A DNA stretch of 64,000 nucleotides from Pantoea sp. SOD02 (GTDB taxonomy: Bacteria; Pseudomonadota; Gammaproteobacteria; Enterobacterales; Enterobacteriaceae): NCBI RefSeq assembly GCF_024707505.1, contig NZ_CP102605.1:806001-870000 (forward strand), given 5' to 3'. Under the pieces are notes generated by a model. That model was not told the DNA's origin and ran no database searches. It saw only the letters and a program-made list of their open reading frames with translations. This document shows, piece by piece, positions 2,307 to 34,581 of the stretch. The translations under genes were made by a program, and so were the position numbers. Numbering within the stretch: position 1 is the first letter of the stretch; each line of letters starts with the position of its first letter.

Positions 2307-2320
2307 AAAGAAGCTTCTTG
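2307..2320. promoter_or_regulatory. Locus box copy 1
   Basis: AAAGAAGCTTCTTG followed by ATTTTGCC. It matches the shared near-palindrome CAAGACATTTCTTG and its right flank, and contains the perfect 12-bp palindrome AAGAAGCTTCTT. It lies 102-115 bp upstream of the Ig-repeat gene start at 2205. Confidence 0.6.
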
Positions 2321-2387
2321 ATTTTGCCGATAGTTATTATATTTCCAAAACGAAAAAGCCTCTTTATTGATATTTCTAAAACTAAGT

Positions 2388-2771
2388 TTATCTGCTTGCG
2401 TAAAAGATATGATTTCCGATTACCACAGTGCGCTCAAGCGATGAACTCCAGTAAGGATTGACTGATTGTGCATGAAAATAGGTTGCGCCTTTGGTGTGGT
2501 CCTCCATTTCACCTTTAATAATTCGTTCTGCCAGATTTTGAGCCTTTTTCCAGCTTTTGTTATGTGTTGGTGGATGATACTCAGAAGGTTTTTTTATTGA
2601 AGTCCAGGAAAATTGTTTAGGTGCATATACAACTGGACAGATCTTTTCAACATTCCAGTTAGCCCTATTCATTGTAACTAAACCTACAGCAATCTGGCCT
2701 TTTACAGGCTCGCCTCGAGCTTCATGATAAATATTGAGCGCAAGGCAAAGGGTAGCAGCTTGAACTAACAT
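2388..2771 (-). CDS. SleB-type cell wall hydrolase (Hydrolase_2 family), 127 aa
   Basis: The motif 'LALNIYHEARGEP.KGQIAVGLVTMNR' is characteristic of the SleB/Hydrolase_2 (PF07486) domain, with the glutamate of YHEARGE as the likely catalytic residue. The conserved 'FSW' and 'A..Y.HA' blocks follow. In this family the fold cleaves peptidoglycan glycan strands. The protein is only the domain: the first helix of the fold is at the N-terminus, so there is no signal peptide or anchor. It sits between the small membrane protein at 2907-3149 and the Ig-repeat gene, same strand. Opening the wall for a large secreted adhesin or autotransporter is a plausible role, but export is unexplained. Confidence 0.75.
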   Translation of the reverse strand: MLVQAATLCLALNIYHEARGEPVKGQIAVGLVTMNRANWNVEKICPVVYAPKQFSWTSIKKPSEYHPPTHNKSWKKAQNLAERIIKGEMEDHTKGATYFHAQSVNPYWSSSLERTVVIGNHIFYASR

Positions 2772-2906
2772 AATGCTTCGCTTTCTAATTGATATGCTGC
2801 GTAGGTTACCGATTTAATTTGTAATAGCCCAACGAGAAACTTCTTGTTTATTGCCCCCTATCATTAGCAACGCTAATTTATTATATGCTCATAATCTATA
2901 GATAAC

Positions 2907-3149
2907 CTAAAGAATAAAGCTGTTTCTTTTACGCATCATTCTAATTCCTTTGAAGGAATTCTTATTGAGACCAATCGGCAACTTTTCGCTCTCGACAAAC
3001 GCGCCTATCTTTTTTACATTTTTAATTGTCGGCCTCTTAAAAATTAAAATTATCCCTAGTGCCATTATATAACTAAGGAGTATCACAGCTGATTGTGATT
3101 CCAGAATAAAGGTGATGCCACTCGTATTCCTGTCGTTATAGGTAATCAC
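2907..3149 (-). CDS. Small membrane protein of unknown function, 80 aa
   Basis: I do not recognise this protein. One hydrophobic segment (about residues 20-38, 'AVILLSYIMALGIILIF') precedes a basic C-terminal half rich in Lys, Arg and Asn, suggesting an inner-membrane protein with a cytoplasmic tail. Support that it is real comes from the locus box 77-90 bp upstream at the spacing seen for other genes here, and from its position as probable first gene of a two-gene unit with the SleB-type hydrolase. No strong ribosome binding site is visible, so the start is uncertain. Confidence 0.5.
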   Translation of the reverse strand: MITYNDRNTSGITFILESQSAVILLSYIMALGIILIFKRPTIKNVKKIGAFVESEKLPIGLNKNSFKGIRMMRKRNSFIL

Positions 3150-3225
3150 TAGCTCATCGCTGACGCAGATGCGAAAAACATAGGCGCTGAGTGGCAGTAT
3201 TTATACCGTACAAAATAAACCGAAC

Positions 3226-3239
3226 TCAGAAATGTCTTT
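3226..3239. promoter_or_regulatory. Locus box copy 2
   Basis: On the minus strand this reads AAAGACATTTCTGA, sharing the 11-base core AAGACATTTCT with the best copies. It lies 77-90 bp upstream of the 80-aa gene at 2907-3149. Confidence 0.65.
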
Positions 3240-3280
3240 AGGAATAGCGTTAACTTAAATAATGAAATTCAGATAGCAAA

Positions 3281-3305
3281 AAGCCACCTGCTAAGCAGGT
3301 GGCTT
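3281..3305 (-). terminator. Rho-independent terminator of the autotransporter gene
   Basis: On the minus strand AAGCCACCTGC, loop TTA, GCAGGTGGCTT, then TTTGC. An 11-bp perfect stem with a T-run lies 25 bp after the autotransporter stop codon. Confidence 0.9.
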
Positions 3306-3329
3306 ATAAAAGTGGCTATCGATCTTAAC

Positions 3330-6300
3330 TTAGAATGAGTAGCGCAATCCCAACCCCACGCTATAACTTTCCCGCTTTTCAAGGCTCGACGACGATGCGC
3401 TGGTCTGATAACCCAACGCACCATGAACTTTCAGATTGGTGGTTAGCCCGGTGCCCACACCGACTTCAGTACTGATACGTCCTGCCGACGAAGCCAGCGG
3501 GGCACGATCTTTGCCGTCGTACACGGTCGTCGCGCGTCCATTCCAGTCCTGCCAGTAATTTACGCTGGCAAACGGTTCAACCATGGCACCGGATGCGGTT
3601 TCAATACTCCATTTGGCGCGCAGGCCAATGCGTCCGGTGGTGCCGGTGGTTTTGCCCAGCGCTACGCTGCTTTGACGATCGGCACTGTCTTTAAAACGGG
3701 TTTCTTGCCAAATCAACTGCGCTTGCGGCTCAAGAGTAAAGCCCGGGCCGAAAGCTGGCAGTGCAAAGGGATAACCGGTCTCCAGCGACGCGGCCACGCC
3801 ATAACCCGTCATATCCAGACTTCCAGACTCACTTGATGCAGTTCCGCGATAGCGCGTGCCCTGCAGCGTGGCATCCAGATAGCTATTGCCCGATCCAACG
3901 TGTGTCCAGTAGCCGCCCACGGAAGTGCCGGTGAGCTTCACTTTGCCAGTGTTCTGTCGGTCATACTGCGTGCCCGCTTCGTTGGTGACCAAACCGCTCA
4001 CCGAAATATTGGCTCGCGTTTGCGCCACGTACAGACCAAAACGCTCGCTGTGCCCTTCGATAAGGCTGCCTTGCCAAATATCAGCACCAATCTGTAAACC
4101 GCCCAGCGTGCCTTTGGCAGTTGGTGCCGCAAAGGCCTGATACCCGTGATCAATCTCACTTGCCAGCAAGCGTGTCCACATTGCCAGGCCCTGCGCAGTG
4201 CCTGAATTCGCCATTAGTGCCGCATCACCGCTGCGTTGATCGCGGGTGCCAAGCGTTAGCATGCCAAGTTCACGCGCAATAGGTTGCACCACACCGTAGG
4301 TTGCCACTGCCGGACCGATAACCGGATACTCGCCCGGCGGTAATACCGCTGGTGGTGGCGTGAGCGGCAATTCGGTGCCTGGTCGGGTTGGATTGGTCGG
4401 CTCGATAACGTCACCACCTTCACCAGGTTCGTCCGGGTCGATCGGTGTAATTGGAATGATCGGTTCAACAGGATCTACCGGCTCAGCCGGGTCAATTGGA
4501 GCAACCGGGTCGATCGGCTCAGGTTCAACCGGATCGGTCGGCTCGGGATCAATCGGGCCCACGATAAACTGATTGCGCAGATACCAGCTGTCAGTCTCTG
4601 AACCGCTCAGGCTGCCTCGGAAAAGACGGTAGCTCAGTGCACCGCTGCGCGTATCGCCGGCAAGGCGGAAAGCATCGTCTTCGGTGGTTGCGCCATTAAT
4701 TGCATCGATCACTTTAATACCGTCGGCGTAGGTGTACGCTTCGCCGCTGTTGGTATTAGTGATAGCAACACGTGTCGTACCGCTGGCGTGGCCGCCATCG
4801 AGGATCAATTGGTCTGAAGGTGAGTCATCCGCCCCCAGCCAGCTATTCAATGCCAGTACGCCATCGTTGCCAATGTAATCGCCAACTACCGTTACTGAAC
4901 GGTAATCGGTGGCACCAATCGTGCCTGGACGCAGCGTGCCGCTATTGGTGAGCGAACCGACAATCTTCATCTCACCGGTCAGCGTACCCGCTGCAGCAAT
5001 CGCGGTATCAGACTGCACCGAACCGTTGATCTGTAAGGTGCCATTCTCCACACGCGTTGCGCCGGTGTAGAGCTGATCGCCATTCAGCGTCAGTTTGCCG
5101 CTGCCCAGCTGCACCACATCGCCGCTGCCGGTCACCATGTTGCTCAAGGTCACATCATCACTGCGATTAAATTGCAGCGTCCCTTCATTCTGAATATCGC
5201 CGACCACGCTGCCGCTGGTGCCGCCGTTACCGATCTGCAACGTCCCGCTGCTGATAGTGGTGCCACCGCTCCAGCTGTTGTCAGCGCTTAACACTGTGGT
5301 GCCTGCGCCCATCTGCTCGAAACGTCCCTGACCGGAAATCACACCGCTTAACAGCGCTGCATCCACACGGTTCACAAACAGCGCCGCACCGCTGGCAATC
5401 TGCACATTGCCCGCTAAATTCCCCTGCGTACCGCCATCACCCACCTGCAGATTACCGGCTTCGATCTGCGTACCACCCGCATGCGCGATATTGCCGGTAA
5501 TTACGCTGGTGCCTGACCCGCGCTGAATAAGCGTGCCGCTGCCCGCAACATTGTTGGTCAGAGCCAACACGTCGGCACGATTGAGAATTAACTGTGAATT
5601 ATTGACGATATCGCCGATCACACTGCCGGAAGTACCGCCATTGCCAATCTGCACGGCACCGCTATTGATGACGGTGACGCCATCCCAGTTATTATCGCCG
5701 GTCAAGGTTAAGGTGCCGCTGCCCTGTTTAACCAGCGCGCCGCCGTCACCGATGATTCCGCTACTAAAGGTCAAATCGTTGCCGTTGTCATCAATGATGC
5801 CGCCATTGCTGCCAACGGTCAGACGATTAGAAATGTCTGCGGTATTGCCGCTCTGCCACAACAATTTTCCGCCGTTAAGATTGACGGCGCCGGTGCCAAG
5901 ATTCGCGCTGCTGGCAAATGAGAGCGTTCCCTGTTCAATCTGGCTGCCGCCAGACCAGGTATTATTACCGGTGAGCGTCAGTACACCTTCACCGCTTTTG
6001 AGCATCTCGCCATTGCCGCTAATCACATTTGATAGCGTCATGGTCGAACCGGCTCCTTCAGTCAGGAAGGTGCCTTTGCCGGTAAGCGCAATAGCGACAT
6101 TACTCTGCATATCCGCATCTGCGCTTAAATTCGCTAAGGTGCCATCAGCTAAGGTGATCTGTCGCGTTGCATTACCATTCCCGGCGAGGATCGAACCGGC
6201 ACGCAATATTGCACCGTCCTGCACCGCAATACGCGATGCCATGGTTCCAGGACCGCTGGTAATGTCACCCATGGTGATGGTATTGGCTTTGAGGATGCCG

Positions 6301-7223
6301 CCGTGGCTGATATTCAGTTCGGCAGTCGTGTTCCCTGCTCCAGTGGTGCGCGCACTCTGCCCTAACACCACATTATCGGCCTCTAACAAACCAGCGCCCA
6401 TATTGAACGTACCGCGCGCAGCTTGCGTCCCGAACCTGGCGGTAGCAATCGTCAACGTATCTACTTTGGCATCAAGCGTACCGCTGGTGGTGTCAAACAA
6501 GCCGGTTGCGCCGCTGTAATTACTGTTCACGCCTGTCGCAATATCAATATTGCTGACCGCATCCACTCCGTTGGCACCGCGCAACTTCAGCGTGCCGTCA
6601 CTAATGGCCGCGTCAAATGTCAACGTACCGCTGCCCTGGCTGGTACCCAGGATGAGCGAATCAACATTGAAGGTATTTTGCTTGCCGAGATTAAGCACCC
6701 CAGTGTTAATTCCAGGTCCCTGAACAGCGCGCCCCGTCGATCCTACGCCAAGTACGCTGGCGGTGATGGTATTGGTTTCACCGGCCAAGGTGACAATCCC
6801 GTGGCTGCGATCGGTCGAGTTGGCCGCGCCACCGGAGCGACGGCCAGATATCACCATGGTGCCGCTGGCATTATCAAACACAAAATTAGACAAGCCGCTC
6901 ATGTCCAGCGTTGCCGTGGTGTTGCTGGCATTGCCACCAATTGCCATATTACTGCTGCCGTTATAGACCAGCGTGCCACCCGCGCCGACAATGGTGCCAG
7001 TGATGTTATTGGCGACACCAAGACCATCAATTTCACGGCGCTGGTCGCCAATATCTTCCGTGCGATTTGAGTTAAAGCTCCAGATTTCCGCTTGCGCGCT
7101 ACCACTAAAAGTGGCACCCAAAGAAAACAGACAGAGTGTTAATGCATTAAATGAGAAGGCCGGCATTGCGACTTCAGCCACCGGCGTTGAGGTTGTTTTA
7201 GATGATGACGTATTGAAGCGCAT
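3330..7223 (-). CDS. Autotransporter (type Va) adhesin, 1297 aa
   Basis: A long leader ends near residue 45 at 'GSAQA|EIW', typical of autotransporters. The passenger is Gly/Ser/Asn/Thr rich and has repeated strand motifs of the autotransporter-associated repeat kind (for example 'GSGTLTLTGDNNWDG', 'GGTTISSGTLQIGNGGTSG'), about residues 390-770, which form a beta-helix. A proline/acidic linker with repeated 'PxxPVEP' lies at about 888-961. The last 280 residues are the outer-membrane barrel, ending in 'GLGLRYSF' with the usual terminal Phe. GGAGG stands five bases before the ATG. A perfect-match copy of the locus box lies 86-99 bp upstream. The usual role is adhesion or aggregation; no protease motif was seen in the passenger. 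Confidence 0.93.
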   Translation of the reverse strand: MRFNTSSSKTTSTPVAEVAMPAFSFNALTLCLFSLGATFSGSAQAEIWSFNSNRTEDIGDQRREIDGLGVANNITGTIVGAGGTLVYNGSSNMAIGGNASNTTATLDMSGLSNFVFDNASGTMVISGRRSGGAANSTDRSHGIVTLAGETNTITASVLGVGSTGRAVQGPGINTGVLNLGKQNTFNVDSLILGTSQGSGTLTFDAAISDGTLKLRGANGVDAVSNIDIATGVNSNYSGATGLFDTTSGTLDAKVDTLTIATARFGTQAARGTFNMGAGLLEADNVVLGQSARTTGAGNTTAELNISHGGILKANTITMGDITSGPGTMASRIAVQDGAILRAGSILAGNGNATRQITLADGTLANLSADADMQSNVAIALTGKGTFLTEGAGSTMTLSNVISGNGEMLKSGEGVLTLTGNNTWSGGSQIEQGTLSFASSANLGTGAVNLNGGKLLWQSGNTADISNRLTVGSNGGIIDDNGNDLTFSSGIIGDGGALVKQGSGTLTLTGDNNWDGVTVINSGAVQIGNGGTSGSVIGDIVNNSQLILNRADVLALTNNVAGSGTLIQRGSGTSVITGNIAHAGGTQIEAGNLQVGDGGTQGNLAGNVQIASGAALFVNRVDAALLSGVISGQGRFEQMGAGTTVLSADNSWSGGTTISSGTLQIGNGGTSGSVVGDIQNEGTLQFNRSDDVTLSNMVTGSGDVVQLGSGKLTLNGDQLYTGATRVENGTLQINGSVQSDTAIAAAGTLTGEMKIVGSLTNSGTLRPGTIGATDYRSVTVVGDYIGNDGVLALNSWLGADDSPSDQLILDGGHASGTTRVAITNTNSGEAYTYADGIKVIDAINGATTEDDAFRLAGDTRSGALSYRLFRGSLSGSETDSWYLRNQFIVGPIDPEPTDPVEPEPIDPVAPIDPAEPVDPVEPIIPITPIDPDEPGEGGDVIEPTNPTRPGTELPLTPPPAVLPPGEYPVIGPAVATYGVVQPIARELGMLTLGTRDQRSGDAALMANSGTAQGLAMWTRLLASEIDHGYQAFAAPTAKGTLGGLQIGADIWQGSLIEGHSERFGLYVAQTRANISVSGLVTNEAGTQYDRQNTGKVKLTGTSVGGYWTHVGSGNSYLDATLQGTRYRGTASSESGSLDMTGYGVAASLETGYPFALPAFGPGFTLEPQAQLIWQETRFKDSADRQSSVALGKTTGTTGRIGLRAKWSIETASGAMVEPFASVNYWQDWNGRATTVYDGKDRAPLASSAGRISTEVGVGTGLTTNLKVHGALGYQTSASSSSLEKRESYSVGLGLRYSF

Positions 7224-7308
7224 GCACTCCTCCGATTAAAAAGAATCTTAGAGGTAAGAAAACTCTTACATGCGACTTATCTTACGAGGGTGGCGTTAAA
7301 ATAGCGGG

Positions 7309-7322
7309 CAAGACATTTCTTG
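7309..7322. promoter_or_regulatory. Locus box copy 3 (best form)
   Basis: CAAGACATTTCTTG, followed by ATTATTGGGGG. It is a palindrome except for one mismatched pair. It lies 86-99 bp upstream of the autotransporter start and after the end of the response regulator gene at 7493. Confidence 0.75.
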
Positions 7323-7492: not shown

Positions 7493-8212
7493 TTAAGCAA
7501 GCCCTTCCACCAGATCCTTGAAGCGGAACAAATCGACATCCGACTTCATGCCCAACTTACGTAATGCATTTTGCTTTTGACCGCTAATGGTTTTGCGACT
7601 GCGATTAAATTTCTCCGCAATCTGGGTGATATTCAGACCTGCAAGATAACAACGAATCACTTCCATCTCGCGCGGCGTCAGTTCACGCACTAACACTTCA
7701 ATATCTTTGCCTTTGCTGCTGCGGAGATGCGGTTCAAGGTAAGGCAGCATATCGGTATCGGGCTCATTAAACTTATCCAGCTCAAGCTGCATATCACCGC
7801 TAAGATAACGCTTACCCGAAGCGACTTTACGAATCGCGTTGATCAGCTCTTCCTGCTCTTTGCTCTTGCCGATAAAGCCCATCACACCAGCCTTAATCAC
7901 CTGATTCACCACCGCAGGGCTTTCAATCGCTGATGAAACAAGAATTTTCAGGCGTGGATAATGCAGGCGCAAATGCTTGACCAGCATTAATCCATCGAAA
8001 TCATCTTCGGCTAATAAATAATCCAGCACCAACAGATCAATTTCGTTGTTCTGCAATGATGGGGTTATTTCCTGGCGGTTTTTATACATACCGACCAGTT
8101 CCAAATCCGGTTCATTTTCTAAACTGTACTGTAAAGCTTTGCGAATAAGCGGATGGTCATCCAGAATCGCCACGTTAATTGGTACTTGTTTCTTCAGCAT
8201 AATAGTTTCCAT
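7493..8212 (-). CDS. NarL/FixJ-family response regulator (RcsB/BvgA-like)
   Basis: The receiver domain has the acidic pair 'ILDDHPLI', the phospho-acceptor Asp in 'LLVLDY' and the conserved Lys in 'GFIGKSKE'. After a linker of about 45 residues comes a LuxR-type helix-turn-helix beginning 'LTPREMEVIRCYLAG' and including 'FNRSRKTISGQKQNALRKLG', close to RcsB. It is the last gene of the type I secretion operon, 42 bp after the outer-membrane factor. A second ATG at 8200, preceded by GGA at good spacing, may be the true start. A regulator inside the exporter operon suggests feedback on the same adhesin genes. It is a candidate for binding the locus box, alone or with the regulator at 31504-32130. 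Confidence 0.9.
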   Translation of the reverse strand: METIMLKKQVPINVAILDDHPLIRKALQYSLENEPDLELVGMYKNRQEITPSLQNNEIDLLVLDYLLAEDDFDGLMLVKHLRLHYPRLKILVSSAIESPAVVNQVIKAGVMGFIGKSKEQEELINAIRKVASGKRYLSGDMQLELDKFNEPDTDMLPYLEPHLRSSKGKDIEVLVRELTPREMEVIRCYLAGLNITQIAEKFNRSRKTISGQKQNALRKLGMKSDVDLFRFKDLVEGLA

Positions 8213-8254: not shown

Positions 8255-10138
8255 TTAGCGACCTGGTGTGTTCAACCAGTCGATTAACTGTCCCGAACTG
8301 GCATGGCTGCGCATAATGGCTGCATAACCATCAAACCGACTACTCACTTCATTCACCCGATTATTATAGTAGTCAGATTCTGCACTAAGCACATCCAGTA
8401 AGGTGCGTTTACCTAAGTGATACCACTGTTCAAAAAACGCCAGGCGAATGCGGTCAGACTCGACTTTCAGGTTCTGGTACAAATCTGCACGTTCAAGCAG
8501 CGATCCCGCGTCCTGATTAGCGGCGCGCACACGTTGTTCAAGATCGCGCTGCTGCTCATCCACCAGATGACGATTGGCTTCGGCACGGGCCAGCGCCGCA
8601 CGTTCTGCCGCACTATTTGAGCCGCCACGGAACAATCCCCAGCTCATTTGCAAACCGGTCTGGAACGCCTGCGACCGGCCATACTCATCTTCACCGGTAT
8701 TTTTGCTCACCACCCAGTTCAGGCTCGGCATACCAGATGAACGCACTGCAGCCGCTTCAGACAGCGAAGCCTGTGCATCCGCTCGGGCTTTCAGGATGGT
8801 GGGATGACGATCAAGGTTCGCCAACTGCGCGTTGAGAATCGGCATGCTGATGTTCCACTGCGCCGCCGCCGGCAGCGCAATCTGTGAATCTCCCAACAGC
8901 CGATAGATAACAATTTCGGTATCCCGCGCTTTGGAAACCGCCGCGTCCAGCGACGACTGCGCGCTCAGTAAGCGCCCTTTCGCCTGCGTCAGTTCGCTGC
9001 TGCGTCCTTTATCCACCGCTACAATGCCACTCAGCATTGAGGTCAATTCTTTCATGCGCGCAACATAATCCTGGCTCAACGAAATGATTAAGCGCTGCTT
9101 GTTGAGTTCAATCATCGCGTTGCTCAATTCCCACGCGGTGTTTTCCTCTTCGGCAGCAATGCCGACAGTTGCCGCACGAGCCTGATCTTCCCGCGTTTTA
9201 ATGGTGTTGCTGGTCTGACCGAAGTCATACAAGGTGGTCGCCACATTAATACCAACGGCAGGAATATCGCTTTTGCTGCCACCGTTGCGGGTACCGCTAC
9301 CAAAATAGAGGCTTTTGCTGTTACTGGTGACATCCACCTGCGGCCAGCGCTGGCCTTTGGCCTCATCCACGCTGCTTTCGGCTGCTGCCGCCTGTGAACG
9401 CGAACTGCTGATACGCGGGCTGTAGCGTAACGCCTGACGCACTGCGTCAGCGAACAGCACTTTGATTTCAGCTTCTGATGGCGCATTCGCCACCTGACGA
9501 CGCGGCGCAGCCACCTCACGTGGCACGGCTGGCATCGGCGTTAAAGTAGGCTGCGCCTGAGGCCGCAGTTCACGGAAAAAGGTCGATGAACCGTTATTTC
9601 CGGGCGCAACAGCCGGAGCAGCTTTCGCACTATCCGCTGTAACCACCGGTACCGGAGAGGTTTGGCGTGGAGCCGGTTCAACGGGGGCAAACAGCGGTTT
9701 TGCTGCCACTGGCGCTGGAGCGGGTAAAACCACACTGGGTGTTGCAGCGGTAATCGGTGCTGCTTTTGCAACGGGTGCCACAGGTTTACTTTGTGCCGTT
9801 GGACGGTTAAAAAACCCACCTGATGAAGTTGGGCTGACCGGCACAGATGTCCAGTTGGCTGCAGGTGCCGTACGTTTTGGCTGTGGCTGTTTCACCGCCG
9901 CAGGCACCTGGGGCCGAGGCGTCACCGTAACCGGCGCAGGCCGTGCCACAGGCGCAACTGATGGACGTGGTGCGATCGGTTTACTCGCAGAACCCTGTTG
10001 CGCCATATTCACGAACATCAACAGCTCATCATCATCGCTGGCTGAGTTCACCGCAAAACTGGTCATTCCGCTCACGGCCGCCACAATCGCCAGCGACAAC
10101 AACTTGATGCTATAGGGGCTTCTTTTATAAATAGACAT
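8255..10138 (-). CDS. TolC-family outer-membrane factor of the type I secretion system
   Basis: The C-terminal 410 residues are an OEP/TolC-type channel with long helices and conserved 'LYDFGQTSNTIKTRE' and 'FEQWYHLGKRTLLDVLSAESDYYNNRV', as in LapE/AggA-type proteins. After an N-terminal hydrophobic segment (about residues 12-32) comes an unusual stretch of roughly 160 residues (about 55-215) made mostly of Pro, Ala and Val with repeated 'APVA' and 'KPVAP'. The start was placed at ATG 10138 because GGGAG lies seven bases before it. That ATG directly follows the stop of the membrane-fusion gene, so the two are translationally coupled. It forms the outer-membrane exit of the exporter. Confidence 0.93.
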   Translation of the reverse strand: MSIYKRSPYSIKLLSLAIVAAVSGMTSFAVNSASDDDELLMFVNMAQQGSASKPIAPRPSVAPVARPAPVTVTPRPQVPAAVKQPQPKRTAPAANWTSVPVSPTSSGGFFNRPTAQSKPVAPVAKAAPITAATPSVVLPAPAPVAAKPLFAPVEPAPRQTSPVPVVTADSAKAAPAVAPGNNGSSTFFRELRPQAQPTLTPMPAVPREVAAPRRQVANAPSEAEIKVLFADAVRQALRYSPRISSSRSQAAAAESSVDEAKGQRWPQVDVTSNSKSLYFGSGTRNGGSKSDIPAVGINVATTLYDFGQTSNTIKTREDQARAATVGIAAEEENTAWELSNAMIELNKQRLIISLSQDYVARMKELTSMLSGIVAVDKGRSSELTQAKGRLLSAQSSLDAAVSKARDTEIVIYRLLGDSQIALPAAAQWNISMPILNAQLANLDRHPTILKARADAQASLSEAAAVRSSGMPSLNWVVSKNTGEDEYGRSQAFQTGLQMSWGLFRGGSNSAAERAALARAEANRHLVDEQQRDLEQRVRAANQDAGSLLERADLYQNLKVESDRIRLAFFEQWYHLGKRTLLDVLSAESDYYNNRVNEVSSRFDGYAAIMRSHASSGQLIDWLNTPGR

Positions 10139-10139
10139 C

Positions 10140-11369: not shown

Positions 11370-11379
11370 AGTTAGTCAC

Positions 11380-13786: not shown

Positions 13787-13800
13787 CAAGACATTTCCCG
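13787..13800. promoter_or_regulatory. Locus box copy 4
   Basis: CAAGACATTTCCCG followed by AATCTGGG; 12 of 14 bases match the best form. It lies 104-117 bp upstream of the type I exporter gene, in the gap after the OmpA-like gene at 13833. Confidence 0.65.
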
Positions 13801-27300: not shown

Positions 27301-27589
27301 CTTTGAGGATCTAGCGTTAACCTTTATCGAACAGAATCAGAAGGATATGGCTGAGCTAGCCACTTATATTGAAACGGTAGATTATTCACGCATTGCCATT
27401 ACAGCCCACAATATATTGGGTGGCGCACGCCTTATTGCGGCGACTGAGCTGGAGAATAGCAGTAGAGAACTGGAGCTCGCGGCTAAAAACAACGATTTAG
27501 TTCAGATAATTCATTATCACCAACAATGTCAGACGTTGATTCTTAACATTGAGCAGCAACTGCAGGAGGCGATGAGGAAAAAGCCGTAA
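24347..27589 (+). CDS. EvgS-like hybrid sensor kinase, 1080 aa (no PAS domain)
   Basis: The start is a TTG preceded by GAGGA at seven bases. After a signal/anchor segment come two periplasmic solute-binding (SBP_bac_3) domains, about 55-285 and 295-530, then a membrane segment (about 538-558). The cytoplasmic part has a HisKA domain with phospho-accepting His597 in 'AQMSHEIRTP', a HATPase domain ('NAIKFTD', 'GTGLGLSIC'), a receiver with Asp889 in 'VITDCNMPEMSG', and an Hpt domain with His1021 in 'AHNILGGAR'. This is the full four-step phosphorelay of EvgS/BvgS. It is followed by a paralogous kinase and a response regulator. The likely signal is a periplasmic small molecule or pH; the ligand cannot be read from sequence. 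Confidence 0.93.
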   Translation: MLLHRLVRLTLFVMTICLTSFTSMAGQPITLAERVPAELSPISLPAAGAAWVSQHPIIRVGVWLPVQPPFMMDYAPQENYEGLSADYLALLGKMLGVTPNVFVYPTRRSAVDALEKGEVDLLSGAALQNENDRDIIYSTPFIQDSAIFIHQAKFKLAAPNTLQGQQLLYVGDDELAKALHKTWPAAMLSRQDNYYQAMAIIRNDPNAVLWGSRKTLQNINSQIYRSELTSTPASIGMSVSQVFATRKANQALIEAINFAISKIPTSSLIRVEQAWRQITDDDRYSGILNLSEDEHEWLRNNPVIPVYIDNNNTPLSMLDEEGNAQGIVVNVLNAIASQSGVNFRYQRIDNLVDMRKKLLEGSDGLIASADASARQSAEISYSTPYFVTRWVLVTRDNAPAITSLADMAGKSIAVFPGVYYLPELKKKYPQVNFIETTMSFKGFFEMFIGKIDGAIVPVLVSDLHRNTLVERFFKVALVLDLHPLRMAIAVKSSDKELLSIVNKSIAQMPPRTMIQEYIAWQNNNPLPSLNLWDRYKYYLFSVLVLIAVLVTFFLLRNYMLKRHVNALEMLQAELEAAKKVAEQASISKTTFLAQMSHEIRTPMNALIGLLELENFGQSSAEQRKNNIAVAYESSKSLLMLVGDILDMAKIESGSYTVRHVPVSLNETLNSITTLFRYSAEEKHLQLSSTIEVSNSDILFDPIMLKQILSNLLSNAIKFTDQGEIEVGLYQSGEVVENRAKYVIEVSDSGSGLDEEQQRAIFEPFVQVEDSRARHQGTGLGLSICRHLASLLGGTLSVDSEPGEGSTFIFRFSAEVCAHNPASTLTSKEMSRSPERIKNILIVDDHAPNRLLLSQQLEFAGHRSVAVESGSQALLAWSQTSTPFDVVITDCNMPEMSGFELARRLRQMEQIAGSAPVPIFGLTAMAEQDVASRARSAGMTDCLFKPLEMATLLARIDGSSETSAPAATNSSIIKTLDKLAKSNPRAFEDLALTFIEQNQKDMAELATYIETVDYSRIAITAHNILGGARLIAATELENSSRELELAAKNNDLVQIIHYHQQCQTLILNIEQQLQEAMRKKP

Positions 27590-27615: not shown

Positions 27616-27629
27616 CAAGACACTTCTCG
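27616..27629. promoter_or_regulatory. Locus box copy 6
   Basis: CAAGACACTTCTCG followed by AATATAGGCC. It lies 107-120 bp upstream of the second sensor kinase and after the stop of the first, so the second kinase probably has its own promoter. Confidence 0.65.
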
Positions 27630-27735: not shown

Positions 27736-30700
27736 GTGAGAGTCGATATTCATGCTTTGGCATGGGCTTTTTTTCTTTATTTTTTTGCCATAGAAAATGT
27801 ATCGGCTAAACCCACCGCAACTGAAGTTGATTTAATTGCGCGCACCCAGGTTCCTGTCCCTCAGATCTCGTTGAGCAGCGAGTCTGAAAGATGGCTCAAC
27901 GAAAATAAATCAATAAAAATAGCCATTTGGGGTAAACCACACCCACCAATTTATATGGGCTATGATCATGCTGCTTATGAAGGCATTGGGGCTGATTACG
28001 CGCAAATTATAGGAAACACGCTGCGTAAAAAGGTCCAGATCTTTCGTTTTAACTCGGCTAAAGAAGCCAGAGTTAAATTAGAGCGTGGTGAGGTTGATGC
28101 GCTGGCGTTTTATACCCCCTCTGATATGCATGCTGAGAATTATCTGGTTTCGAAACCTTATTTACTCGACCATCAGGTCATCGTGCATAAAAATAATTTC
28201 GACACCAATTTATTATCATCACTAAAGAACAGTGATTTGGCTTTTATTAATGAAGATGAATTAAACCAGTCATTAAAAATAAATTATCCGGAAGCGCGTT
28301 TAAAACCTTATGTTTACTACAGTGAGGCGATGGCCTCGCTTGCCTATGAAGCAACCGATGCATTCTGGTTAAATGCTTCAACCGCACGTTTCCTGATGAA
28401 ACAAGGCGTCGAGACGCAGTCAAAGGTGGTGTTACAAACACTACCCGCCAGCGCGAATGTCTCTTTCGCCGTGATGCCTAATAATCGCGCACTATTCAAC
28501 GCCATTGAAAACACACTCGCCACCTTACCCGTTACCGACCATATTCGTATCGTAAATAACTGGGGTTTAGATTCGTCATTTGTGGTTAAAAAGAATCCCT
28601 TGATGTTGGCTCCCGAAGAGCTAGCGTGGATCCGCCAACATCCTCTGATACCGGTCTCTCTGCCACGCACCTTGCATCCAATCAGCTTTGCTGACGAAGG
28701 TGGATTTATTAATGGTTATGCTCGCTCATTACTGGATCTGATCGCTGAACGAACCGGATTGAAATTTGAGCATGAGCTTCCCCCAGCTAACGTGCAATAT
28801 TTATTACCGCCTGGCGCACATCAGCAGGGAATCGTTGCCGCATTAATAAAAAAATCGCAACCGGAATTCGGCATTAGCTATAGCCGTAGTTTTGCAATCT
28901 CTCCCTGGGTAATTGTGGTTGATAAACGGGGTACAGAATTAACGTCGCTGACGCAGATGGCAGGCAAAAAGGTCATGCTGACGCACGACAGCGGTTTGTA
29001 TAGCCTGTTGCAACATCAATATCCACGGGTCAATTTTGAGCTAGCGGGCACGCTAACGGAGGCGATGTCTTTGGTGGCACGTGGTATTGCCGATGCCGCA
29101 ATCAGCACTCAAATATCGGCAGACTATCTCATTAATAAGCAGTTTCATCAGGAACTGGTCATTACTAACGCGTTGAATATTGCTCCGGCGAATTTCGCTA
29201 TGGCCGTCAGCAGCGATAATCCGGTGCTGCTAAGTATTTTGAACAAGGCCATGACCCAGCTGTCCCCTAAGATATTGCAACAGGATTTATCCCCGTGGCA
29301 GAACTATCAGGCTCCGCCAAAAGTGACCGTTTGGGATAGTTACAGCCTTTTTCTCATGAAGGTTGCCGGATTTATTATTTTTCTGCTGGTCTTCTTCTTT
29401 ATCCGTAATCGTTATTTGGGTCGAACATTGACTCAACGCAAACGTTACGAGCAGCAGCTGGAAGACCAATTACGCTTTACGCGTACGCTGATTGATGACT
29501 CGCCTGTCGCACTTTATGTCCGCGACCTCAATGGTTATATGCTGCAGTGCAATAATACCTACTTGCAGTTTATGCATACCACTGTGGATATTGTTAAGGG
29601 AAAAACGTTGCAAGCTGCGGGCGTTATTTCAGCTGAATCCGCAAGTAAGCTTCAGCAACTTTACGACCATACTCTGCTGCATAAAAAACCCATATTTACC
29701 CAGCAGGAAATTATCAGCACCGACGGTAAACTGGCTCAGGTCTATCATTGGTCACTTCCCTACCGTGATCATCGTGGCGAGATCAACGGCATTATTGGCG
29801 GATTCATCGATATCACTGAGCGTGAACAGTTGCTCTCTGAACTCAAAAAAGCCAAGCGGGTTGCTGAAAAAGCCAATGCCTCAAAAACGATTTTCCTTGC
29901 TCAGATGAGTCATGAGATCCGCACGCCGCTGAATGCGTTAATTGGCTTGCTGGAACTGGAGCATCGAAAATTATCACCACCTGAGAAGCGTGAACGAAAT
30001 ATTGCTGTTGCCTGGCAGGCCTCTCAATCACTTTTGTCTTTGGTGGGCAATATTCTCGACATGGCAAAAATTGAGTCCGGCGTACATAACATCAAAAATA
30101 CTCCTGTTTCACTCCAGGACTCGGTTCAGTCTCAGGTGACGCTGTTTAGCCATATGGCGCAGAAAAAAGACTTAGCGTTAAATTGTCATTGTGAAATTAA
30201 TGATGGTGATGTGCTGCTTGATCAAACCATGTTCAATCAGATCGTTGCCAATCTGCTGAGCAATGCGATTAAGTTCACCTTGCGTGGCAAAGTCGAGCTG
30301 TTCCTCAAGCAGGTGGAATCTACCCGTCATGGGTTGAATCACTATATTTTACGGATTGCTGATACCGGTCCAGGATTAAGTGAATATCAACAGCAGGCAA
30401 TTTTTGAGCCGTTCGTGCAGGTTGAAGATGGCATTAAAGGGTCTCAGGGAACCGGGCTGGGTCTGAGTATTTGCCGTCAGCTTGCGAATAAGTTGAATGG
30501 GGAGCTTGCAGTTGAGAGTGAGCCCGGAAAAGGCACCCGATTTATTTTTACCTTTTATGCAGAAGCACACAGCGCAGTATCACCAGCTGTTTCCACTCAG
30601 ACGGCAAATAACCCGATTAAACCGCTGAGGGTACTGGTTGTGGATGATAATGCGCCTAATCGACTGTTATTGTGCCAGCAACTTGAATACGTTGGCCACC

Positions 30701-31359
30701 ACGCGGTGGCGGTTGAAGATGGTCGCCAGGCGCTAATTTCGTGGTCAATCGCTGAACAGCCTTTTGATGTGGTTATCAGTGACTGCAACATGCCTGGAAT
30801 GAGTGGTTTTGAACTCATCAAACAACTGCGTGAAAAAGAACTTGAGGCGAATTTGCCCCCGCGCCCTATGTTTGGTCTGACGGCGATGGCCGAACATGAG
30901 GTAGCTGTGCGCGGTAAAGCCGCAGGCATGACGGCCTGCTTGTTTAAGCCGCTGTCACTGGATGCGTTGATGGCTTATCTAACGGAACGTAAGACGTTTC
31001 AGGCCACGATCCCGGAGAAGCCTTCTGAAGAGCGATGGAAAAAAACGCTGTTTTTTAACCGGATGCCTCATCTCAATTCCTATGCCATTCAGGACATGAC
31101 TGAGACGTTGCTGGCAAGTAATGACGAAGAGATAAAACTGCTTGAGCGAGCGGTCGCAGGCAAGCATGCAAAGCTTATTCAGGACCATGCGCATCGTCTG
31201 CTGGGTACTGCGCGCATGATAAAAGCGCAAAAGTTACAGAAATTATGCATGGATATAGAACACGCTGCCGCAGAGAATCAATGGGGTGTTATTCAATCCC
31301 TATTAGCGTCCTGTAATGATGAAGTCAATTACATCGCATCCGCGCTTCAGGAAGAATAA
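27736..31359 (+). CDS. EvgS-like hybrid sensor kinase with PAS domain, 1207 aa
   Basis: The GTG start has AGGAA eight bases before it. The order matches the first kinase but with an extra domain: signal segment, two SBP_bac_3 domains (about 45-275 and 290-525), membrane segment (about 535-556), PAS domain (about 575-690, 'LIDDSPVALYVRDLNGYML'), HisKA with His726 in 'AQMSHEIRTP', HATPase ('GTGLGLSIC'), receiver with Asp1016 in 'VISDCNMPGMSG', and Hpt with His1153 in 'AHRLLGTAR'. It is a diverged duplicate of 24347-27589; only this copy has the PAS module, as E. coli EvgS and BvgS do. Two ligand inputs feeding one output is the simplest reading. Confidence 0.93.
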   Translation: MRVDIHALAWAFFLYFFAIENVSAKPTATEVDLIARTQVPVPQISLSSESERWLNENKSIKIAIWGKPHPPIYMGYDHAAYEGIGADYAQIIGNTLRKKVQIFRFNSAKEARVKLERGEVDALAFYTPSDMHAENYLVSKPYLLDHQVIVHKNNFDTNLLSSLKNSDLAFINEDELNQSLKINYPEARLKPYVYYSEAMASLAYEATDAFWLNASTARFLMKQGVETQSKVVLQTLPASANVSFAVMPNNRALFNAIENTLATLPVTDHIRIVNNWGLDSSFVVKKNPLMLAPEELAWIRQHPLIPVSLPRTLHPISFADEGGFINGYARSLLDLIAERTGLKFEHELPPANVQYLLPPGAHQQGIVAALIKKSQPEFGISYSRSFAISPWVIVVDKRGTELTSLTQMAGKKVMLTHDSGLYSLLQHQYPRVNFELAGTLTEAMSLVARGIADAAISTQISADYLINKQFHQELVITNALNIAPANFAMAVSSDNPVLLSILNKAMTQLSPKILQQDLSPWQNYQAPPKVTVWDSYSLFLMKVAGFIIFLLVFFFIRNRYLGRTLTQRKRYEQQLEDQLRFTRTLIDDSPVALYVRDLNGYMLQCNNTYLQFMHTTVDIVKGKTLQAAGVISAESASKLQQLYDHTLLHKKPIFTQQEIISTDGKLAQVYHWSLPYRDHRGEINGIIGGFIDITEREQLLSELKKAKRVAEKANASKTIFLAQMSHEIRTPLNALIGLLELEHRKLSPPEKRERNIAVAWQASQSLLSLVGNILDMAKIESGVHNIKNTPVSLQDSVQSQVTLFSHMAQKKDLALNCHCEINDGDVLLDQTMFNQIVANLLSNAIKFTLRGKVELFLKQVESTRHGLNHYILRIADTGPGLSEYQQQAIFEPFVQVEDGIKGSQGTGLGLSICRQLANKLNGELAVESEPGKGTRFIFTFYAEAHSAVSPAVSTQTANNPIKPLRVLVVDDNAPNRLLLCQQLEYVGHHAVAVEDGRQALISWSIAEQPFDVVISDCNMPGMSGFELIKQLREKELEANLPPRPMFGLTAMAEHEVAVRGKAAGMTACLFKPLSLDALMAYLTERKTFQATIPEKPSEERWKKTLFFNRMPHLNSYAIQDMTETLLASNDEEIKLLERAVAGKHAKLIQDHAHRLLGTARMIKAQKLQKLCMDIEHAAAENQWGVIQSLLASCNDEVNYIASALQEE

Positions 31360-31401: not shown

Positions 31402-31415
31402 AGAGAAATGTCTTA
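31402..31415. promoter_or_regulatory. Locus box copy 7
   Basis: On the minus strand this reads TAAGACATTTCTCT, with the full core AAGACATTTCT. It lies 89-102 bp upstream of the EvgA-like regulator gene. Confidence 0.7.
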
Positions 31416-31503
31416 GCAAGACCAGGGTTAATTCTCTTGCATACTTTAGCTTATGAAACAGCATGCCCTGCTGCATTACTGAGATGGACATCAAGGATTT
31501 ATT

Positions 31504-32130
31504 ATGCAAAAGAATATCGTACTCGTAGACAAACACCCATTGGTTTTCCAGGGAATACGACGTCTCTGTAGAGAGTACGGATATCATGTGATTGACGCTT
31601 ACAGTGAAGGCAATGATATCTACAAGACCATTATCGAGGCGCGCCCGGAGTTCATTATTCTGGATATACACCGCATCGATATGAAGAGTGCTGAAATTGC
31701 TAAGGTACTCAGCACCATGAACTTGATTTCTCGCACCATTGTGTTTAGTGAGTATGACAATCTTTTTTATCAGCGCGAGTGCATTTATTTAGGTATCAGA
31801 GCCTACATTTCCAAAACCCTGGAAATAGACAATGTCATTCAAGCCATGCATGCGCTTAATGCCGGTTCAATATATTACCCAACTTTAAAGACACGAAGCA
31901 GCACGCAAGGGATCAAAAATTTTGATCGGTATATTCTCGATAACCTTACTGACCGTGAGCAGCTTGTACTGAAAAAACTGTCAGCTGGCATGTCAAATAA
32001 AGAGATATCTATTGATTTAAATCTCAGCAATAAAACCATCAGCACTTATAAACAGCGCCTGCTTGAAAAACTCGGTGCCAGAAGCCTAATTGAAGCGGTA
32101 GATATTGCACGTATGCATGAGATTCCATAA
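31504..32130 (+). CDS. EvgA-like response regulator, 208 aa
   Basis: AAGGA stands six bases before the ATG. The receiver domain has the phospho-acceptor Asp54 ('IILDIHR') and Lys104 ('YISKTLE'), but the acidic pair usual at the end of strand 1 is 'VDKHPLV', so the second acidic residue is Lys10. The C-terminal LuxR-type helix-turn-helix ('LTDREQLVLKKLSAGMSNKE', 'LSNKTISTYKQRLLEKLG') is close to EvgA. It follows the two hybrid kinases on the same strand and is the expected receiver of their phosphate. A locus box in front of it suggests autoregulation. Confidence 0.92.
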   Translation: MQKNIVLVDKHPLVFQGIRRLCREYGYHVIDAYSEGNDIYKTIIEARPEFIILDIHRIDMKSAEIAKVLSTMNLISRTIVFSEYDNLFYQRECIYLGIRAYISKTLEIDNVIQAMHALNAGSIYYPTLKTRSSTQGIKNFDRYILDNLTDREQLVLKKLSAGMSNKEISIDLNLSNKTISTYKQRLLEKLGARSLIEAVDIARMHEIP

Positions 32131-32200: not shown

Positions 32201-32250
32201 TTTGGGGATTGATGACAGGACTGTAAGTTTTATTTTCGCTATTAACTGAT

Positions 32251-33453
32251 TTAGAGCTCAGTATCGAGTGGGTTTGACAAAAGTGAATCCAGGTCGATTT
32301 TTGTTCCGGTTGCAGAGGCATATTCAAGTGACGCAAACTCTGATTCAGCCCACAAGGTGATACCACCGTCTGGATGCAGCAGATCTTCGAGGCCGGACAG
32401 TTCGCTATCATCAATCTGTTTATTATCGTTAAGTGCTGAGAAGAGATCAGATTCATTGATCACCAGCAGTTCGCTCAAATCAAGGTCTACTGTTTGCGCC
32501 GGGGACGATACTTGTGTTTTAAAGTCTTGCAGGACTGTCAAGAATACTTCATCACTCTCAATTAATGGCACCAACGTTAATGATGGCTGCCCCTGCGCCT
32601 CAATGAATTCATGATTAGCCACTATTTCAAGCAAAACCTTATCAGCGACTAACTTACGTTCCCCTTTCGGACTGGTGCTATACAACGTGAACGCGTATTG
32701 CCCGTCGGGTAACGTATAGGGTAATTCAATGCTCCAATAACCACGGCTATCAGCCGATGTCGTGGCTAAAACTCTGCCGTCCTGATTGAATATTTCAATC
32801 AGACTATCTCGCTCACTTATGCCTGAAAAGATCGGCTGGTTGTCATGTGACGTAGAGTCGATAACCGATTCACCCGCTTTATTTTTAATGTAAAAAGTGA
32901 ATCCGCCATCTGACTCCCCACTGATTAGCGGAATATCGTTAATGAGTAAGGCACTTTGGTCCATCATCACATCTGAATAATGCGTTGCCATCTCAGTAAT
33001 ATTATCAGCCTTCAGTTCTCCGCTGATTTCCACTTGCTGGGTAAAAGATTCGCTCAGTTCATCGTTAACCGCCACTGCAGGCAAAGTTACTTCCTGTTTA
33101 GGAGTAACTTTAACAGCATGCTGATTTAAAGATTCAGGTGAGTTAACCGTTGCTGGCCAGCGCCCAATAAACCCCGCTTCGGGGATGATCGGTAACGCTT
33201 TTTCCAGCAGGATTTCACCGCTGGATGCCAGACCAACCGCGGCCATATTCCCCAACGCCAGCAGAGAGGCACAAGCCGCGCCATGCACCACCAAACCGTT
33301 CAAGGGGCTCATCGCGTTTTGCTGTTCATAGCTATGCTCTTTAAAGGCCTGACCATTCAGGTCTAAATATTGACCTGTTTCGTCTTTACCTTTTGTAAGA
33401 CGTGCATCCTGGAACGTTGTTTCTTTTGGCTGGGTTGGAAACGAGTGTTTCAT
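32251..33453 (-). CDS. Small non-Sec Ig-like protein, probable type I secretion substrate, 400 aa
   Basis: The start is placed at ATG 33453 because GAGGA lies eight bases before it. There is no signal peptide; a short hydrophobic stretch occurs near residues 55-80 ('LALGNMAAVGLASSG'). One Ig-like domain is clear in the middle ('QPIFSGISERDSLIEIFNQDGRVL', 'DSRGYWSIELPYTLPDGQYAFTLYS'). The C-terminal 80 residues are acidic, with 'TVDLDLSELLVINESDLFSAL' and 'DGGITLWAES', resembling the C-terminus of type I-secreted adhesins such as the giant one here. A perfect locus box lies 236-249 bp upstream. I do not recognise a named family for the whole protein. Confidence 0.75.
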   Translation of the reverse strand: MKHSFPTQPKETTFQDARLTKGKDETGQYLDLNGQAFKEHSYEQQNAMSPLNGLVVHGAACASLLALGNMAAVGLASSGEILLEKALPIIPEAGFIGRWPATVNSPESLNQHAVKVTPKQEVTLPAVAVNDELSESFTQQVEISGELKADNITEMATHYSDVMMDQSALLINDIPLISGESDGGFTFYIKNKAGESVIDSTSHDNQPIFSGISERDSLIEIFNQDGRVLATTSADSRGYWSIELPYTLPDGQYAFTLYSTSPKGERKLVADKVLLEIVANHEFIEAQGQPSLTLVPLIESDEVFLTVLQDFKTQVSSPAQTVDLDLSELLVINESDLFSALNDNKQIDDSELSGLEDLLHPDGGITLWAESEFASLEYASATGTKIDLDSLLSNPLDTEL

Positions 33454-33688
33454 TTCGGATATCCTCATATGCCCAAAAATGATGAGTAAATTTTGGAGCA
33501 GTAATTCCTGCTCTTAAGAGGCAATGAGATACTGCAACGTTGAGTTTTAATGCAGAAGTGTTCTGCGTTATGGAAATAGGTTGATATTAAGATTGACCAA
33601 TAAAAGGTAAGTTATAGAGTGATCCTTTCTAAGGTTTCTTATCTTAATATCTGGTGCAGATAGTAAGATATTTCCTACCATTGCGGGG

Positions 33689-33702
33689 CAAGACATTTCT
33701 TG
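33689..33702. promoter_or_regulatory. Locus box copy 8 (best form)
   Basis: CAAGACATTTCTTG, identical over all 14 bases to copy 3, followed by GATCTTGCG. Upstream of the gene at 32251-33453. Confidence 0.75.
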
Positions 33703-33774
33703 GATCTTGCGCTTTGGCCCGTTTCACGAAAAAAAAATCGTTGTTCCCGGTTTGATAACCGCTTTAGTGGCTTA

Positions 33775-33816
33775 AATGACAAAGGGAAGAGCCATCCAGC
33801 CCTTCCCTTTGTCATT
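33775..33816 (-). terminator. Strong terminator-like hairpin after the 219-aa Ig-like gene
   Basis: AATGACAAAGGGAAG and CTTCCCTTTGTCATT form a perfect 15-bp stem with a 12-base loop, 30 bp after the stop of the gene at 33846. The T-run is short (ATTTAAG). Confidence 0.75.
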
Positions 33817-33845
33817 GCAGTGAGCAACTCTAATATGCCAATGGT

Positions 33846-34505
33846 TTAACTCACGGATACTAAATAATTGATATCTTCCTGATACGTCGGTAAAGCCGGT
33901 TGGATATCGAAAATCTGATTCGCCACACCAGCACTCTGGAATTGCATATCGGATTCCGTAATTGTCAGTGACAATGGTTCTTCAACCACGACAGCAGGAA
34001 CATCATCAAACAATGTGAAATGGCTATCGACCAGAATGTCTGCCATCAGATCATCTGAAGATGGCATAACATTGACCACGAATTTCTCTGATGTGAAATC
34101 ACCGCTGCTCGCTTCAATTTCAAAACGCGTACCGAAAGCACTGTCTACGTAGAGGAATTCAGGTGTTGTTTGCCAGTTTCCTGAATGGTCCGCGTTAACA
34201 CGTGAGTAAAAAACCCCATGCTCTGTAGTGTATGAAAGGTCTATAGTGGCATAGGCCGCAGCAATACCTGAGAGGGTTGGCAAAGCGGAAATGATGTCGC
34301 CGCTTTCAACCATACTTTCACTTCCTGGATAATGGATGTTGAACGTGACTGGCGTGCCTATGAATGATGTCGCTGTTTCGGGCATATTCATCATGTTAAG
34401 CGCACCAGCACCATCAATATTCAACTGATTTTGCTTATGAGCCGATGGTGAAAGTGCCAACGCTGTTGCTTGTGTGCTAGAGAAATTAGTTGCAAATTCT
34501 TTCAT
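33846..34505 (-). CDS. Small non-Sec Ig-like protein, 219 aa
   Basis: I do not recognise a family. There is no signal peptide. The middle (about 55-150) has the pattern of one Ig-like adhesin domain ('DLSYTTEHGVFYSRVNADHSGNWQTTPEF'). The C-terminal 60 residues are acidic and end in hydrophobic residues ('DINYLVSVS'), which would suit a type I secretion signal. A locus box lies 63-76 bp upstream, the same spacing as other members, and the gene has its own terminator. It is best read as a short co-regulated relative of the adhesins. Confidence 0.65.
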   Translation of the reverse strand: MKEFATNFSSTQATALALSPSAHKQNQLNIDGAGALNMMNMPETATSFIGTPVTFNIHYPGSESMVESGDIISALPTLSGIAAAYATIDLSYTTEHGVFYSRVNADHSGNWQTTPEFLYVDSAFGTRFEIEASSGDFTSEKFVVNVMPSSDDLMADILVDSHFTLFDDVPAVVVEEPLSLTITESDMQFQSAGVANQIFDIQPALPTYQEDINYLVSVS

Positions 34506-34567
34506 TTATTAAAAAGCCCTTTTAATAAGGTAAGCATTATTATTGTAATAAATATTAGGTGCATCAA

Positions 34568-34581
34568 TGAGTCATTTCTTG
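34568..34581. promoter_or_regulatory. Locus box copy 9
   Basis: TGAGTCATTTCTTG followed by AATATCTAAACC. It is the weakest on its left side but complete on the right. It lies 63-76 bp upstream of the gene at 33846-34505. Confidence 0.55.

Follow-up and report, generated by a model that had tools for sequence, protein, structure and literature searches.

The subject of this analysis is a stretch of 64,000 nucleotides from Pantoea sp. SOD02 (contig NZ_CP102605.1, positions 806,001 to 870,000 of the forward strand), below called the window, and a near-palindromic 14-bp box that recurs in its intergenic regions upstream of adhesion, export, and signalling genes. The box belongs to a real operator family, and the window is one accessory branch of an EvgA/BvgA-type network rather than a private regulon. 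Judging from sequence, we consider it fairly probable that the box serves as a promoter-proximal operator of BvgA/EvgA type for an activator, with the EvgA-like response regulator RR1 (31504-32130, plus strand) as the probable binding protein. The box, its conservation, its spacing to a -10 hexamer, and its association with EvgA-type loci were observed directly.

All nine positions at which a preliminary description had placed the box carry its sequence in the 64-kb window. When CAAGACATTTCTTG was used as the consensus for the window search and up to three mismatches were allowed, eight of these nine sites were recovered; the ninth, at 2307 (AAAGAAGCTTCTTG), has four mismatches by eye, yet a perfect AAGA-N4-TCTT core. 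The nine sites had been taken for the full set, and a tenth box at 2833 was missed. In total, 10 distinct places in the 64 kb match with at most three mismatches, and nine of them are intergenic, the exception being 26825, inside the gene for kinase K1. Intergenic DNA makes up 8.2% of the first 35 kb of the window (13 segments, 2877 nt). These segments contain nine boxes; in 500 first-order random versions, the mean was 0.36 and the count never exceeded 3. Since the consensus was derived from the same sites, the test is circular in part, and the genome-wide tests therefore weigh more. When all 64 kb are searched with coding DNA included, the excess is weaker (13 rows versus 6.0 expected, and 2 of 100 shuffles reach 13). 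The right flank AAT..TTGGG, previously described for seven copies, is real: its information content of 9.55 bits over 12 columns was not attained in any of 5000 simulations, although both the seven sites and the orientation in which they were read had been chosen by the earlier reader. A search with the right-flank pattern TTTCGGGTAATGCTTGGG, which was badly chosen, gave no match.

Gene models are the longest open reading frames (ORFs) called in this analysis and not an annotation. The box CAAGAAGCTTCTTT (2307-2320, minus strand) precedes the gene for an Ig-repeat protein (ORF 1-2277, minus strand). It lies 29 nt from a TTG, which is probably not the true start; an ATG preceded by AAGG is found near 2205, where translation probably begins. 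The tenth box, CAAGAAGTTTCTCG (CGAGAAACTTCTTG; 2833-2846, minus strand), stands 61 nt before a Hydrolase_2 (cell wall hydrolase) gene (2388-2771, minus strand), and AAAGACATTTCTGA (3226-3239, minus strand) stands before an 80-aa ORF (2907-3149). An exact copy, CAAGAAATGTCTTG (7309-7322, minus strand), is located 85 nt before the gene for an autotransporter with PATR repeats, AC_1, and a beta-domain (3330-7223, minus strand) and is followed by a -10-like TAAGAT 24 nt downstream. The type I exporter operon (8255-13683, minus strand; OEP 8255-10162, HlyD 10140-11369, ABC 11380-13683), whose last gene encodes the RcsB-like response regulator RR2 (7493-8212, minus strand), is preceded at 103 nt by CGGGAAATGTCTTG (13787-13800, minus strand), with a -10-like CAGAAT 24 nt downstream of the box. 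The box CAAGAAAAGTCTTT (24181-24194, minus strand) lies between the gene for a giant Ig-repeat adhesin of 2761 aa (15755-24040, minus strand; 140 nt) and that for the EvgS/BvgS-like hybrid kinase K1 (1080 aa; 24347-27589, plus strand; 152 nt). On the plus strand, CAAGACACTTCTCG (27616-27629) is found 106 nt before the gene for K2, an EvgS/BvgS-like hybrid kinase with a PAS domain (1207 aa; 27736-31359, plus strand), and AGAGAAATGTCTTA (31402-31415) is found 88 nt before RR1. The second exact copy of CAAGAAATGTCTTG (33689-33702, minus strand) precedes the gene for a 405-aa Ig-like protein (Big_13; 32251-33468, minus strand). Finally, CAAGAAATGACTCA (34568-34581, minus strand) is located 62 nt before the gene for a 219-aa protein with no Pfam match (33846-34505, minus strand), which has 38% identity over 98 aa to a 1772-aa Ig adhesin encoded at another locus of the genome (L078). 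Distances to the ORF start range from 61 to 152 nt, about as described before for eight of the sites (the start behind box 2307 being uncertain), and the distance at 33689 is 220 nt rather than the earlier 240.

Three more inverted repeats with the geometry of the box share box-bearing intergenic regions and were absent from the earlier list: TAAGAAAACTCTTA (7255-7268), TAGGAAAAATCCTC (24165-24178), which adjoins the box at 24181, and TAAGATATTTCCTA (33664-33677). These second repeats lie 16, 25, and 54 nt from the window boxes; dimer arrays of BvgA have a step of 22 bp. Between the giant adhesin and K1 (24165-24194), the repeats TAGGAAAAATCCTC and AAAGACTTTTCTTG are neighbors separated by 2 nt; judging from the one-sided flank, the main target may be the giant adhesin.

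The exact box has only two copies in the whole genome, both inside the window. The genome was searched for CAAGAMATKTCTTG with at most two mismatches, the pattern read backwards served as the control, and the surroundings of all 77 sites were classified by script. The box pattern matched 42 sites and the reversed pattern 35; 26 of the former and nine of the latter are intergenic. Positions within 300 nt upstream of an ORF start were found for 25/42 box sites and 5/35 control sites (P=5.5e-5). Upon removal of the six window sites, 19/36 remained upstream versus 5/35 (P=9e-4), and upon further removal of one terminator-like site, 18/35 (P=0.002). Targets outside the window include an outer-membrane usher gene beside two EvgA-like genes, two EvgS-like kinases, two EvgA-like regulators, the 1772-aa Ig-repeat protein, a subtilase autotransporter, and a second autotransporter. 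Three EvgA-like regulator genes of the genome have upstream boxes with 2-3 mismatches to the consensus. Box-like sites also precede genes for a LacI-type regulator, TerC, cytochrome b561, an MFS transporter, and others; these sites, which may be due to chance or to other regulators, were kept in the counts. The claim that the box is confined to this locus thus holds only for the two exact copies. Nor can the proposal of a single regulon be kept, given the sites at other EvgS/EvgA-like loci, the usher, the Ig adhesin, and the autotransporters, and the conservation of the box at chromosomal EvgSA-like loci of other Erwinia. On the sequence evidence, the suggested dimeric NarL/FixJ-type operator joining adhesin, exporter, autotransporter, and two-component genes appears well founded.

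The layout of the box was analyzed separately from its exact bases by counting ARGA-N(k)-TCYT in upstream DNA for k=0-14. In the window, seven such repeats have k=4, and the next-best spacing has three. The upstream DNA of 20 Erwinia regulator loci contains 18 repeats at k=4, with five at the next-best spacing; two of the 18 are terminator-like and five are TTAAGA....TCTTAA-type palindromes, which may belong to another regulator, leaving about 11 versus at most five elsewhere. For 80 named EvgA-type loci (Pseudomonas, Shewanella, Vibrio, Bordetella, and others), 44 repeats were found at k=4 and at most 12 at any of the 14 other spacings, although the 44 sites are not all independent because near-duplicate loci (e.g., L239 and L243) are included. 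At least one k=4 repeat is present in 34 of these 80 loci, and the consensus by eye is TAGGAAATTTCCTA. Across 66 full-length loci, the density of k=4 repeats per 10 kb is 7.9 within 1 kb of the regulator, 4.0-4.5 up to 7.5 kb, and 1.1 beyond, while other spacings stay at 0.3-0.7 throughout. In 35 control loci from the same genome, two repeats were found at k=4, no more than at other spacings. The peak across the named loci indicates that the geometry is general to EvgA-type loci and that the window uses a TCTTG dialect of it. On the chromosome of the same strain, a canonical TAGGAACATTCCTA repeat is located 87 nt before an EvgA-like gene (L070, 6354-6367); a second operator dialect thus seems to be present in the same cell.

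The boxes have a regular position relative to the core promoter. For the set of 10 window sites, a scan of 60 offsets in the direction of the gene placed the best -10 hexamer signal 23-24 nt after the box (P=1e-4), and NANNNT occurs at offsets 22-26 in nine of the 10 (other registers: mean 3.5, maximum 7). The -10 signal was also found at the preset offset of 24 for 11 other sites of the genome (P=0.002). In the named loci, -10 peaks were found at offsets 44-45 and 22-23, approximately one 22-bp step apart, and the reversed-control sites showed no -10 peak (P=0.48). Since the box ends about 24 nt before the -10 hexamer, a 17-nt spacer would set any -35 element directly against the box. A fixed register with the proximal site against -35, as in promoters of the BvgA/EvgA type, was thus found, by a test that is not strict. 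Three results count against this regularity: the same 11 sites give P=0.09 when the offset is not preset, NANNNT is present at offsets 22-26 in only 5/11 of them (other registers: mean 3.3, maximum 6), and one control spacing (5 nt, n=10) also reaches P=0.002. The -10 register is therefore good but not decisive support.

The window genes have counterparts elsewhere on the chromosome. K1 is 38% identical to the kinase at locus L071 and K2 34% to that at L073; RR1 is 35 and 26% identical to the EvgA-like regulators RR-A and RR-B, and RR2 is 57 and 49% identical to its counterparts. A GGDEF diguanylate cyclase gene (L071, 5652-6599) and the gene for the chromosomal EvgS-like kinase point away from each other; the DNA separating them contains a box-like repeat, and the cyclase could form a c-di-GMP branch. 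The closest matches to RR1 in 61 Erwinia genomes are 33-35% identical, and none in the best 80 named loci exceeds 37%; RR1 thus has no close relative in either set, which argues that the window locus is accessory. Three plasmid records similar to the locus were found, with only short matches of at most 85 nt. The network has chromosomal counterparts in Erwinia, largely with the box dialect in common, and the window locus can be described as one accessory copy of it.

At these counterparts, the box has been conserved. Comparison of related genomes revealed a box kept in a diverged promoter, namely the divergent-side promoter of the RcsB-like regulator at the kinase-B locus, in 11 Erwinia genomes including the present one. 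Ten of the 11 have CCACAYAAGAANNGTCTTGAAA, and the remaining genome (G003), in which the adjoining ORF was called as 225 aa and not as a kinase, has CCACACAAGACATTTCTTAAAC. In a twelfth genome (G031), the kinase is no longer adjacent and the repeat is altered. Additionally, CGAGACATTTCTCGGTT is kept in 4/4 RR-B promoters and TTCAAGACA...CTTA in 8/10 RR-A promoters. In the alignments of these boxes, the flanking DNA is more diverged than the boxes. Near RR-A, a conserved TTAAGAA..TTCTTAA-type palindrome was found 37-42 nt before a gene for an 801-949-aa protein (L082 3604, L083 3823, L084 16545, and L085 12217); it is probably a site of another regulator.

The abundance of the box also follows the regulators. 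With at most one mismatch, 29 places were counted in those Erwinia genomes that encode an RR1-type regulator (16 of 61 at E<=1e-22; the present genome is one of the 16, with four places) and 16 places in the other 45 (P=7e-5, indicative only because the genomes are related). The reversed control gave 17 and 53 rows over the same split (P=0.59). When the genomes were split by RR2-type genes, 28 places were found in 14 genomes and 17 in 47 (P=3e-5); abundance therefore cannot separate RR1 from RR2. The same distribution bears on the housekeeping RcsAB regulators, whose site TAAGAAT-ATTCTTA has, in the excerpted source, the same 7-7 inverted layout as the box. RcsB is expected in nearly all of these genomes, whereas the box follows the pair of EvgA-like and RcsB-like genes; moreover, the inner bases differ (AMATKT versus AATATT). 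It is thus very improbable that the box is simply an RcsAB site.

Another explanation would take the boxes for terminator palindromes or a dispersed repeat bound by no regulator. The near-palindromic form of the box agrees with this, as does one repeat at L073 (14987): together with its orthologues (CAAGACTAGTCTTG), it was considered as an operator and rejected, since it lies about 10 nt after the stop codon of RR-B and is probably a terminator hairpin mimicking the box. Most boxes, however, stand 60-150 nt before gene starts at a regular spacing to a -10 hexamer, are conserved in promoters that have otherwise diverged, and are tied to one regulator family, and no Rfam match was found in the window. 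This explanation is likewise very improbable.

Other observations weigh against the reading of the boxes as BvgA/EvgA-type operators. Genome-wide, 17 of the 42 sites are not upstream of a gene, and among the 25 that are, one (L137) overlaps the ORF start by 3 nt and another is the terminator-like repeat just mentioned, 10 nt past a stop codon. In the genome of Pseudomonas fluorescens EK007-RG4, which has a related exporter module, the box with at most two mismatches is not enriched relative to the reversed pattern (30 versus 29 rows).

This module of P. fluorescens (L225) is syntenic with the window in the order adhesin-OmpA-ABC-HlyD-OEP-RR2, with identities of 77% for ABC, 78% for HlyD, 68% for OEP, and 59% for RR2; its locus also contains one EAL protein. 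The exporter promoter has TAAGAAATGTCTTG in place of CGGGAAATGTCTTG of the window, and both are followed by TGTCAGAATTTTC and by CAGAAT 24 nt after the box. The only exact copy of YAAGAAATGTCTTG in the P. fluorescens genome is located at this promoter. Four other Pseudomonas exporter operons, which are in or near RR2-bearing loci, have ABC genes 67-71% identical, and include one from the same genome as L225, were searched for a box before the ABC gene, and none was found with at most three mismatches; one site with four mismatches is present there in L343. Homologues of the Hydrolase_2 protein (51-54% identity) are present in two Pseudomonas loci with RR2-type genes. RcsB-like RR2 proteins were found at E<=1e-55 in nine of 398 Pseudomonas-group genomes; among 369 genomes of the class, only the present one has such a protein at E<=1e-38 (at most seven candidates scored per genome in both sets). 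Relatives of RR2 occur in 57 plasmid records, the best with approximately 42% identity. In the Pseudomonas group (L342-L351), RcsB-like RR2 genes recur in several genomes near genes for Ig-repeat adhesins, OmpA/DUF2846, type I exporters, or EvgS-like kinases, suggesting a recurrent adhesion module around them.

Two regulators of the window are candidates for binding the box. RR1 is nearest to EvgA (E=6.5e-25 versus structure 5f64), and the putative binder is probably this protein, as judged from sequence comparison. The sharp k=4 peak favors RR1, since it persists in the 77 of the 80 named loci that have no RcsB-like gene (41 repeats at k=4, at most 10 at other spacings), the absence of that gene being judged by sequence motif within the fetched stretch only. 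Some points oppose this assignment. RR1 scores below the NCBIfam EvgA equivalog cut-off (116.4 versus 251 bits). In the loci that share the TCTT/G dialect, identity to RR1 is only 26-35% for the EvgA-like regulators, whereas identity to RR2 is 49-57% for the RcsB-like ones; the better conservation of the latter across these loci favors RR2. Additionally, the one Pseudomonas locus with the same dialect has an RR2 sharing RSRKTISGQKQ.

It is possible, though clearly less probable, that RR2 reads the box, either as a homodimer or in a heterodimer that includes RR1, similar to those of RcsB with RcsA or GadE. RR2 matches RcsB at 8e-27 and is below the NCBIfam RcsB equivalog cut-off (105 versus 235 bits). 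Besides its higher identity in the box-bearing loci of the genome, its recognition helix RSRKT[IV]SGQK is nearly constant in such loci, and the RcsAB box has not only the same layout but also TCTT half-sites (excerpts of PMC7298118). Such an RR2 is encoded by the last gene of the P. fluorescens exporter operon that has the same box, and this presence, together with the conservation of RR2 among the dialect loci, favors RR2 or a pair. Against RR2 stand the equally sharp spacing peak in loci where its gene was not found and the four boxless Pseudomonas exporter promoters. Furthermore, no box was found beside RR2-type genes (36-44% identical) in seven Erwinia loci (L301-L307), which have no kinase gene by a length-and-motif filter and a single weak inverted repeat near another gene. 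Since L303 also contains an EvgA-like gene, this last result cuts against RR1 too.

An unlikely variant is that an EvgA-like and an RcsB-like regulator bind the box together as a heterodimer and that the adhesin/exporter module carries its dialect between Erwinia and Pseudomonas, plugging into the regulator pair of the recipient. A conserved flank is present on only one side of the asymmetric window box, and three box-bearing systems have possible pairs: RR1 and RR2 in the window, RR-B and a 233-aa response regulator, and a 234-aa response regulator, perhaps with the orphan RR-A. No EvgA-like gene was found in the fetched locus of the 234-aa regulator.

Returning to RR1 as the favored candidate, we infer the identity of the binding regulator, the activation, and the signal as follows. 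Each of the two inverted heptads (CAAGAAA/TTTCTTG and variants) would hold one DNA-binding domain of a response-regulator dimer. K1 and K2 may sense a surface or envelope signal and phosphorylate RR1, dimers of which would bind the box and recruit RNA polymerase at weak promoters. RR1 would thereby switch on the adhesin, its exporter, the autotransporter, the small Ig-like proteins, and the hydrolase, as well as the kinases and its own gene in a positive feedback. This proposal provides a concrete and testable operator grammar, ARGA-N4-TCYT with a -10 hexamer at about 24 nt or one further step of 21-22 nt, for a large family of sensor systems, the targets of which are known mainly from Bordetella, E. 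coli, and P. aeruginosa. The grammar predicts that expression of the secreted giant adhesin is coordinated with that of its exporter and of the sensors themselves, and it raises the question of how an operator dialect is shared or divided among the paralogous systems of a cell.

No report of such a box in Erwinia was found among the listed titles and abstracts on EvgA, EvgS, adhesins, and type I secretion, the subscription literature being mostly outside this coverage. Among known operators, the RcsAB box is similar in its 7-7 inverted repeat and TCTT half-sites (excerpts of PMC7298118), with 9/14 bases in common with CAAGACATTTCTTG by eye, and differs in outer and inner bases. The E. coli EvgA system has the nearest relative of RR1 and a similar half-site, TTCTTAC. 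The preliminary description held that the box differs from the EvgA site. This is true of the evgA-emrK promoter, which lacks the box layout: TTCTTAC and GTAAGAA are arranged the opposite way round, at a distance of 13 nt, and this region contains no ARGA-N4-TCYT repeat. In a wider sense it is not, as TTTCTTG is a two-base variant of TTTCCTA and the same inverted layout occurs at EvgA-type loci of Pseudomonas, Shewanella, and Vibrio.

The closest parallel in operator architecture is the Bordetella BvgAS system. According to excerpts of the published descriptions, the high-affinity sites of BvgA are inverted TTTCCTA heptads (PMC4314077), and its dimers are spaced by 22 bp with the last one against -35 (PMC7250471). 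The window box likewise consists of two inverted 7-bp half-sites, 14 bp in total, with the promoter-proximal site against -35. Its exact copies have TTTCTTG in place of TTTCCTA (5/7 bases identical). The kinases with periplasmic binding-protein domains and the adhesin targets are also shared, as far as the excerpts go. At Pfha, the high-affinity site is described there as the one furthest upstream, whereas the best box of the window is promoter-proximal; moreover, unlike BvgAS, the window has two kinases and an RcsB-like partner. In the Roc system of P. aeruginosa, several regulators have highly similar DNA motifs, overlapping targets, and a fimbrial adhesin output (excerpts of PMC12051241). 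The window differs in its targets, an exported Ig adhesin and an autotransporter, and no EAL-type regulator corresponding to RocR was found among the 16 window ORFs scanned. The present system resembles Roc (RocS1/S2 and RocA1-A3; same source) in the combination of two kinases with several EvgA-type regulators.

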